In this document: positions 1 through 38,240 of the stretch, piece by piece
How the letters are laid out: every line of letters starts with the position of its first letter
Position numbering within the stretch: position 1 is the first letter of the stretch
From: Candidatus Poribacteria bacterium
Lineage (GTDB): Bacteria > Poribacteria > WGA-4E > WGA-3G
Reading direction: 5' to 3'
DNA length: 64,000 nucleotides
Assembly: GCA_009839745.1 (NCBI GenBank)
Contig: VXPE01000074.1
Location: 1-64,000, forward strand
The notes under the pieces: model-generated
The model's input: only the letters and a program-made list of their open reading frames with translations
What the model was told of the DNA's origin: nothing
The model's database searches: none
Translations under genes and position numbers: made by a program

Positions 1-341
1 CCGCGTTCCTCTAAAGCACTTCCATCGTGCATACTGCACGATATACAAGACCCTCAGTCAGCAAGCCCTTCAATGACGAAATCTGCTTGCTCTGCTAGGT
101 CAACAAGCAGTTCCGTCGGTGCGGGACGCGTGAACGTTGGTTTTTTAACATGAATCACTTCGGCAAGATCAAACCGTTCCTGCATCAATTCAGCAATGCG
201 GTCAAGGAAGATATCGCTGCCGTTTTTCGTGATGTTCAGCAGTCCCATCACTTTTCCATCAAGGCTCTGAAGCCGCGGTGCGGGAAATTTCGCTGATGCG
301 TCGCCTTGAGAAGTCGGATCAAGCAAAGTCGTATTTGGCAT
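1..341 (-). CDS. UGSC family selenoprotein (partial at window edge, Sec at in-frame TGA)
   Basis: Partial gene running off the left edge. Codons 1-95 start at ATG 341 (GAGG 7 nt upstream) and reach TGA at 54-56. The same frame continues open to base 3 and reads U-G-S-C-I-S-C-S-M-H-D-G, the signature of the UGSC family in which the first position is selenocysteine or cysteine. The N-terminus (LLDPTS near residue 7) and the segment ADFVIEGLAD just before the TGA also fit the family. A hairpin suited to a bacterial SECIS follows the TGA. UGSC proteins are believed to be thiol/selenol redox proteins, but their substrate is unknown. The TPR gene lies 62 nt upstream on the same strand and may be co-transcribed. 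A gene caller that treats TGA as stop would end this gene at 54. Alternative: a nonsense mutation of a CGSC homologue. Confidence 0.88.
24..42 (-). promoter_or_regulatory. Putative bacterial SECIS hairpin for UGSC selenoprotein
   Basis: On the mRNA strand, 11 nt after the UGA, AUCGUGC pairs perfectly with GCACGAU (7 bp) around the loop AGUAU. A G is the second loop base, about 19 nt after the UGA. Known bacterial SECIS elements lie inside the coding sequence just downstream of UGA, with a small apical loop carrying a guanine in its first positions, read by SelB. Position, stem and loop all fit. The hairpin also encodes family-typical residues, so it is under dual constraint. Confidence 0.75.
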
Positions 342-5563: not shown

Positions 5564-6559
5564 TTACTGTTTGAACGCATTTGCCACAGCGACCAAATCT
5601 AAGACATTGACAACACCATCGCCATTCACATCTGGGGCATTTCCCCCAAATCCATTGGCAACCGCAACCAAATCCAAAATGTTCACAATACCATCTTCAT
5701 TGACATCGCGTCTGTCGGTTGTTCTTTTCAGGTAAATTTCACCGTCTAAATCGGGAAGCACATGCCAATGCCTATTTTCAACACCAGAATGCCAGCCTGA
5801 CACTTTCTCAGGCAGATAGACCCAGCGTTCCTGACCACTTCTGTTATACACCGCCCAGCCGTTGGTGAATTCTCGGATAAATAGCCCATCTATTGTGCCA
5901 CCTTTAGAGGTTTTGTGGAGGACACCCTTGCTTTCATCGCCACCGATTGGACGACCAAGGAGGGCATTCCAGAAGTCATACCAGATGTGTTCGTGATGCG
6001 GAATAAAGTCGCCTTTCTCATCAAACCCGTTAAAAAAACCCGATCGTCCCGTCGTGTAAAGGATGTATCCATCAGAATGTGTTAGACTCATTGTCGTAAA
6101 AAGCCGCATCCAACGTTTGTTTTCAGGGGCATCGGGAGCATATTGTCCGAACCCTTGGGGACGAAGCGAATTGATTTGTGGAGATCGAAGATTCTTTTCA
6201 TTCCACAGGCGGGTATTTTCTACCGCTTGAAGGTATTTGTAACTATAGCCCCCTTGATGCCAAGGACCTATTTCCATGAAAGAACCGTTGACATATTCAC
6301 TGTGAACCGGTACTTTACCATCGTTAGCGTTGACGAGGATGAGGAAGTCATCTCGGACCTGTTCGCGAACACCTTTTAGAATCTGGGCATGTGCCTCTAT
6401 AATTTCTGTGCCACTCCAACACCGTTTGCAACGCCAAACAAAATCGATATTAAACATATCGTATAAATCGGTCTCATTCCTTATCACCTCATGGAATAAC
6501 GGCAACGTAAACCTGTGAATGCCCGGAAACGTCTGAGGTATACACAACAGCCGTTTCAT
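5564..6559 (-). pseudogene. Glycoside-hydrolase-like protein with C-terminal dockerin, 5'-truncated
   Basis: From about residue 34 on, this is the C-terminal part of a putative glycoside hydrolase-like barrel (NIDFVWRCKRCW, EYVNGSFMEIGPWHQGG, RLFTTMSLTHSDGY, EHIWYDFWNALLG, NGWAVYNRSG). It ends in a type I dockerin module of two calcium-binding repeats, DVNEDGIVNILDLVAVANGFG and DVNGDGVVNVLDLVAVANAF. Dockerins normally plug enzymes into cohesin scaffolds. There is no signal peptide or N-terminal barrel half, and the first 24 codons overlap the 3' end of the upstream gene in another frame, so the 5' end looks deleted. A possible restart is the ATG near 6455. The dockerin matches the remnant at 4123-4188. 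Confidence 0.65.
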
Positions 6560-37190: not shown

Positions 37191-38240
37191 GTGAAGAATT
37201 TTATCATTTTTAACAAATACTTTTTTATAGCGTTCGGGTTAATTTTCATCTGTGGTTGCGAGACAATTCAGGATGTTATTCTCACTGAACCACCGAGTGA
37301 AACAGATATAACACCACTGCGCGTAACCATGATATATCCCAGCGATTGCGTTGGCTCAGCGGCTTACTGTGATGCCTTCCATATCGGTGTAAGAGCAGCA
37401 GAGACAGGACTTGGAATTAGTCTCACTGAGGTTAGCGGGGTGGAAGACGATGCGACGGTGTCAGAAATGTTGTTAAGAGAAGCTGCACAAAATTCGGACC
37501 TCGTTTTAACAGCGGGCTATCAGATGGGAGAGCCTCTGGCGATGATAGCGCCTGAATTTCCTGATGTCCAATTTGCAATCTTTGATGTTGTCCTTGATAT
37601 TCCAAATGTGGCTTCCGTGAACTACAAATCCAATGAAGGGTCGTTTCTGGTTGGAGCAATTGCGGCTTTAAAATCAGAGAGCGGTAAAATCGGTTATATT
37701 GGTGGAGTGGATGTTCCGTTGTTACGCGAGTTTGAAGGGGGTTACGTCGCCGGAATTCAAGCGATCAATCCAGATGCAACAATCTCCGTAGAATACATCA
37801 GCGAGGATGTAACCGGTTTCGGTCAACCTGAAAAAGCAAAAGAATTGGCGTTGGCACAATATGAAAGCGGTATTGATGTAATTTACGTCGCCGCGGGTGG
37901 GTCGGGTCAAGGGGTCCTTGAAGCCGCCCAAGAACAACAAAAATTTATAATTTGGGTTGACTCCAACGGTAACCATCTTGCCCCAGGCATTGTCCTAACG
38001 AGTATGACCAAAGAGATTTCAACTTCTGTGGAGCACATCATCCGAGAAGCCGTTGACGAAAATTTTATGGCAGGTATCCGATACTTCGGACTCAAGGATG
38101 GTAGTGTGAGTTATGCCGTCGATGAACACAACCAATCCTTGCTTTCGGACGACATGATAGCGACCGTTGAATCATTGAAAGCAAAGATCATTGCTGGCGA
38201 GATCGTTGTTCCTGATACAGTTTCACTTCCGCGCGAATAG
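37191..38240 (+). CDS. BMP family substrate-binding lipoprotein
   Basis: 349 residues of the basic membrane protein (PnrA/Med) family, nucleoside or purine-binding components of ABC importers. The N-terminus VKNFIIFNKYFFIAFGLIFICGC has a lipobox Cys. Family features include NSDLVLTAGYQMGEPLAMIAPEFPDVQFAIFD, NYKSNEGSFLVGAIAAL, GKIGYIGGVDVPLLREFEGGYVAGIQA and IWVDSNGNHLAPGIVLTSM. The GTG at 37191 follows GGGAGG, so it is preferred to an upstream GTG at 37173. No permease or ATPase genes are adjacent, so it works with subunits encoded elsewhere. Confidence 0.92.
   Translation: MKNFIIFNKYFFIAFGLIFICGCETIQDVILTEPPSETDITPLRVTMIYPSDCVGSAAYCDAFHIGVRAAETGLGISLTEVSGVEDDATVSEMLLREAAQNSDLVLTAGYQMGEPLAMIAPEFPDVQFAIFDVVLDIPNVASVNYKSNEGSFLVGAIAALKSESGKIGYIGGVDVPLLREFEGGYVAGIQAINPDATISVEYISEDVTGFGQPEKAKELALAQYESGIDVIYVAAGGSGQGVLEAAQEQQKFIIWVDSNGNHLAPGIVLTSMTKEISTSVEHIIREAVDENFMAGIRYFGLKDGSVSYAVDEHNQSLLSDDMIATVESLKAKIIAGEIVVPDTVSLPRE

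Follow-up and report, generated by a model that had tools for sequence, protein, structure and literature searches.

A UGSC-family gene with a probable selenocysteine UGA codon at a Poribacterial contig edge, its predicted flavodoxin-like fold and its conserved partner gene

The DNA analysed here (the window) is a stretch of 64,000 nucleotides from the genome of a sponge-associated Candidatus Poribacteria bacterium, read from the forward strand of contig VXPE01000074.1 (assembly GCA_009839745.1), and its first letter is base 1 of that contig (C74), one of 141 in a genome of 5.04 Mb. At this edge, positions 1–341 of the minus strand hold the first 113 residues of a gene of the UGSC family. From the start ATG at 339–341, the frame runs for 95 codons to a TGA at window 56–54, and it stays open past the TGA as far as the window edge, reading ADFVIEGLAD-U-GSCISCSMHDGSALEER and giving 113 residues in all. 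The original prediction, that a 95-codon frame stopping at TGA 54–56 is followed by an open UGSCISCSMHDG frame, is exact in the window sequence. The codon (54–56, minus strand) would specify selenocysteine (Sec) as residue 96, in the motif UGSCISC, a reading based on conservation and on alignment with Cys homologues. When the TGA was translated through, the window protein carried [U/C]-G-S-C at the fixed site of the family (as UGA) and matched Pfam UGSC (PF24696) over profile positions 2–110 of 172 (E 1e-26; 94.6 bits, with a cut-off of 25). Against NF041046 ('UGSC family (seleno)protein') the window fragment alone scored 90.7 bits, short of the cut-off of 125, and since full-length orthologues exceed that cut-off (158 bits), the shortfall reflects the cut protein. 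Immediately upstream, a TPR protein of 110 aa is encoded on the same strand (404–736, minus); it is kept beside UGSC in 41 Poribacterial loci, and none was seen beside UGSC in the loci of other phyla. Farther into the window, an ORF at 5564–6559 (minus strand) has a C-terminal end made of two dockerin-like repeats, DVNEDGIVNILDLVAVANGFG and DVNGDGVVNVLDLVAVANAF.

The first 55 bases of the window (1–55) are identical to the final 55 of contig C97 (G000:C97:10607-10661), and this overlap looks like a break in the assembly graph and no biological gene end. UGSC profile positions 94–171 lie on C97, on the right strand and free of stops (87.8 bits against PF24696). When C97 and C74 were joined through the 55-nt overlap, the result was 183 codons and a stop, the other 70 residues and the stop being supplied by C97. 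Accordingly, the full-length UGSC protein that was expected past the left edge is present across the two contigs, and C97 continues the frame with no stop or frame break soon past the edge. The joined protein is identical to its nearest orthologue at 163 of 180 positions, and it resembles the UGSC family (PF24696, NF041046) in its HMM match, in its U-G-S-C motif and in size, the family's usual length being about 170–180 aa.

Because the TGA is 54 bases from a contig end, at an assembly break, it might be a mistake of sequencing or assembly, or else the lesion of a pseudogene derived from a Cys-coding gene. However, 62 of the order's 73 genomes have UGSC. Full-length orthologues come from 60 genomes besides the present one, and each of them has a single TGA within its match (the two UGSC genomes outside the 60 are the present one, with its split gene, and one with a contig-end fragment). 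Across 84,980 species genomes, a scan found 80 UGSC loci, which represent six phyla or more (Poribacteria, Rokubacteria, Binatota, Acidobacteriota, Entotheonella, Pseudomonadota and others) and have U at the motif in 80/80 cases; the 53 closest of these loci in named genomes are all Poribacterial, which marks the present organism as a Poribacterium. Since every one of the 60 orthologues and 80 scan loci carries UGA, a chance origin of the in-frame TGA is excluded. An error or lesion is also refuted by the recurrence of this TGA across the order's independent genomes and the wider set, single-contig chromosomes included; codons flanking the TGA are conserved, the frame continues open past it, and we give this explanation next to no weight.

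Among plasmid records, the Cys form of the motif (CGSC) was found in the haloarchaea Natrinema, Halorientalis and Halalkalicoccus, and also in Roseovarius, Arthrobacter and Embleya, and UGA forms were found in Paracoccus versutus and Acidovorax. In the alignment of UGSC homologues, Cys sits exactly at the UGA codon, so that Sec and Cys form one invariant column. The original prediction of Sec or Cys at this place is therefore correct in that both exist, with the qualification that Sec predominates (80/80 loci here); PMC2398784 tallies 255 Sec against 21 Cys members. Residues Cys98, Cys101, His104 and Asp105 and the sequence HPIQ are conserved 3' of the UGA. An ordinary stop at the UGA would yield a 95-residue product, with the downstream frame left untranslated or reached by low-level read-through, and both a standard gene caller and the public Acidovorax annotation do end the gene there. 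Such a stop is difficult to reconcile with a downstream half that is conserved as strongly as the upstream half, with Cys homologues that have a sense codon at the UGA site and then continue, and with the full Sec system of the genome, and we regard it as very improbable. The prediction that gene calling would truncate the gene before its active site is illustrated by Acidovorax sp. T1, in which the annotated protein ends exactly at the UGA. This gene (L184:7001-7291), cut in the public annotation to a short hypothetical protein, is carried by p2-T1, a conjugative IncP plasmid, and has IS1071 and ISPps1 transposases upstream.

All four of the components sought for Sec decoding, selA, selB, selD and tRNA-Sec, were found in the genome. 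The tRNA-Sec (78 bits; ARAGORN anticodon TCA) is on contig C22, 108 nt downstream of selB, while selA is on contig C50 (600 bits) and selD on contig C117 (locus L178; 360 bits). The selD gene has an in-frame TGA of its own (KCAG-U-ASKLAPGEL), and because of it the product is predicted to be a Sec-containing selenophosphate synthetase. Contig C111 encodes, at 37201-37587, a PrdB/GRDB-like protein whose frame also contains a TGA (TPV-U-PxCNQSVG in relatives) and which is present in most genomes of the order; with selD, it brings to two the UGA-containing selenoprotein genes that this genome has besides UGSC. The frame would likewise be open if UGA were reassigned throughout the genome to an ordinary amino acid, e.g., Gly or Trp, and TGA became a sense codon. 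No TGA occurs, however, inside the frames of selA (479 aa) and selB (647 aa), UGSC genes of the same Poribacterial genus can end at TGA, the homologous residue is Cys and neither Gly nor Trp, and the genome has a tRNA-Sec with anticodon UCA, all of which make reassignment exceedingly unlikely. The proposal that UGA is decoded as Sec, made originally from sequence, is consistent with the Sec machinery in the genome, the conservation of the UGA and the Cys homologues at the same codon. We conclude, with a probability of about 0.93, that the window holds the 5' portion of a genuine UGSC selenoprotein gene of a bacterium, with its UGA predicted to be read as Sec and a product of 183 residues. The UGSC-containing selenoprotein family was already recognized in 2008 (Zhang and Gladyshev, 2008, PMC2398784), and the discovery of such a selenoprotein is itself not new, but in the literature searched we found no description of a Poribacterial UGSC member and no selenoprotein paper on Poribacteria.

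A SECIS-like hairpin, TCGTGCAGTATGCACGA, is located just 3' of the UGA (25–41, minus strand), with an apical GU at window 34–33, and folding of the RNA after the UGA, around this hairpin, gave −15.3 kcal/mol (z = −3.1). In 50 distinct Poribacterial UGSC genes, each of codons +4 to +9 past the UGA is nearly restricted to one synonym, which the remainder of these genes uses less often: ATA was used in 45/50 (background 0.13), TCG in 50/50 (0.11), TGC in 49/50 (0.26), AGT in 50/50 (0.36) and CAC in 50/50 (0.35). The apical GU is present in 82/82 Sec genes, the third base of the corresponding codon is T in 0/6 Cys genes, and this apical GU is the one hairpin feature that tells Sec genes from Cys genes. 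Several Cys homologues retain 5–6 of the 6 hairpin pairs because the amino-acid sequence partly dictates the pairing, and on account of this coding constraint they are not a clean negative control. There are few compensatory changes (one pair occurs as C-G, U-A and G-C), and an Rfam scan around the UGSC gene gave nothing over threshold. The hairpin, with its putative SECIS function, is strongly supported by these sequence features.

An AlphaFold model of UGSC, built from 47 sequences, had a pLDDT of 90.9 and a pTM of 0.85. Strands and helices alternate in the model, and Sec, the first residue of a U-x-x-C-x-x-C motif, lies at the N-terminal end of helix three. The best PDB matches found with Foldseek were flavodoxins, FMN reductases and lumazine synthases, at TM scores of about 0.4–0.5, and no thioredoxin was among the 50 structural matches listed. 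UGSC has been placed among thioredoxin-like families in PMC2398784, a suggestion repeated in PMC13188914, but this fold is not supported here, since a confident model predicts a flavodoxin-like alpha/beta fold and the 50 listed matches include no thioredoxin. UGSC would share its predicted alpha/beta/alpha fold with flavodoxin-like proteins such as SsuE, WrbA and flavodoxin, from which it differs in having a Sec/Cys active site, with sequence identities of 9–20%; no match to known flavin-binding families was obtained, and PDB sequence searches with the UGSC, PrdB-like and partner profiles (the partner is described below) returned no relative.

In many genomes UGSC adjoins a gene for a partner protein of about 350 aa that starts with DGLPVxPPT and contains the motifs NAVMAGCxPEY and RANATIGRAL, with an extra N-terminal domain in some members. 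Apart from an N-terminal thioredoxin-like part, the partner matched no family in Pfam or NCBIfam; Foldseek likewise matched essentially only this part, using a structure model of moderate quality (pLDDT 71). Of 35 loci examined beyond the main Poribacterial lineage, 34 have the partner gene next to UGSC (26/27 non-Poribacterial scan loci and 8/8 plasmid loci, archaea included), and the two deepest UGSC-bearing Poribacterial genomes have it there as well. The lineage to which the window belongs lacks this adjacency, and neither trxA nor trxB was seen near UGSC there. In other Poribacteria the two genes are unlinked yet co-inherited, as 69 of 73 genomes of the order are concordant (60 with both, 9 with neither and 4 with one only; Fisher p 3e-8, with genomes counted without phylogenetic correction). 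The 9 genomes without either gene belong to four genera, and since 6 of them retain the UGA-containing PrdB-like gene, loss of UGSC and its partner is not simply loss of Sec decoding. The unlinked partner gene of the present genome has as neighbors genes for 2-oxoacid:ferredoxin oxidoreductase, CBS proteins and a threonine dehydratase-like protein, which gave no functional clue, while the plasmid neighbors of UGSC (TRAP transporters, CoA transferases and a CoA ester lyase) point to carboxylic-acid metabolism. On the haloarchaeal plasmids at loci L187 and L189, the Cys-form UGSC has one paralogous copy of the partner on each side, which suggests that the partner protein is heteromeric. At locus L180, in the deep Poribacterial genome G014, the partner gene has an in-frame TGA (KPGUGS, versus RPGCGS in relatives), and because it falls where relatives have Cys, G014 may encode the partner as a second selenoprotein. 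The 'UGSC/Unknown_1 fusion' mentioned in PMC2398784 may also involve the DGLPVxPPT partner gene.

Thioredoxin is associated with this gene pair in two ways. The gene row is trxB-trxA-partner-UGSC in Arthrobacter and partner-UGSC-trxB in Roseovarius, and a thioredoxin-like domain (CPTC or similar) is fused to the N-terminus of the partner in Acidobacteriota, Pseudomonadota and deep Poribacteria. UGSC might instead be a selenoprotein that acts as a general thiol oxidoreductase of thioredoxin- or peroxiredoxin-like type, with no dedicated partner enzyme, and both its UxxC motif and its published placement among thioredoxin-like families (PMC13188914 and PMC2398784) would fit such a role. The confident flavodoxin-like model and the near-obligate presence of a partner gene of a different kind argue against it, and we consider a general oxidoreductase unlikely, though to be taken more seriously than any misreading of the UGA. 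The flavodoxin-like model, the adjacent partner gene and the trxA/trxB neighbors or fused thioredoxin domains together suggest a thioredoxin-driven reductase of two subunits.

The known enzymes most similar to such a reductase are glycine and D-proline reductases. GrdB and PrdB (TIGR01917, PF07355) resemble UGSC in having a U-x-x-C active site, a genomic link to thioredoxin and thioredoxin reductase, and, as proposed for UGSC, a multi-subunit enzyme, but UGSC, at about 180 aa, is smaller than GrdB (436) or PrdB (242; PMC3091704), and it is found in many lineages that are not known for Stickland fermentation. Weak matches to the GrdB model TIGR01917 were obtained for 34 of 47 UGSC proteins (best E 4.8e-4), with scores of 15–17 bits in two UGSC members against a cut-off of 602 bits. 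The HMM coordinates of the weak match set Sec on Sec, placing the UGSC residue at about model position 347, and the Sec of GrdB is residue 350 (PMC3091704). Since profile–profile alignment with hhalign gave no significant similarity between UGSC and the PrdB-like family of Poribacteria, common descent of UGSC and GrdB is a lead only. No GrdE/PrdA pyruvoyl subunit was recognized, the partner having no Pfam or NCBIfam match to GrdE/PrdA. In glycine reductase, NADPH is the electron source, and thioredoxin reductase and then thioredoxin relay the electrons to GrdA and GrdB (PMC3091704); the two systems would have in common a plan that combines a Sec module with another subunit and a supply of thioredoxin.

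SelB bound to the hairpin just past the UGA would direct the ribosome to insert Sec and read on to the 183-residue protein, a reading of the sequence that is strongly supported. In the mechanism that we propose for this protein, Sec and the neighboring Cys would form a selenol/thiol pair for reductive attack on a small organic substrate. The DGLPVxPPT partner would complete the active site with its second half, and the selenenylsulphide would be reduced again by thioredoxin, as happens in glycine and D-proline reductases. By analogy with these enzymes, this is the function that we find most likely for UGSC, at odds somewhat short of even. Correspondingly, we propose tentatively, and with slightly more doubt than confidence, that bacteria and archaea have a two-subunit reductase, driven by thioredoxin and so far undescribed, in which UGSC is the catalytic module and the DGLPVxPPT protein the other subunit.

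The window gene provides a clean case of a UGA predicted to be read as Sec in an uncultured phylum, in which ordinary gene calling strips the active site from the protein. UGSC is listed among the commonest selenoproteins of ocean and freshwater metagenomes in PMC2398784, whose account of the family as likely thioredoxin-like differs from the flavodoxin-like model obtained here. What is new is this predicted fold, the DGLPVxPPT partner, and the trxA/trxB neighbors or fused thioredoxin domains. The wider result, comprising the fold correction and the partner system, outweighs the single gene in importance and merits follow-up, because a near-constant partner, a modeled fold that contradicts the published one, and trxA/trxB neighbors lead to a testable hypothesis for the UGSC enzyme. 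If the hypothesis is true, UGSC and its partner would be a counterpart of glycine and proline reductase outside Stickland fermentation.
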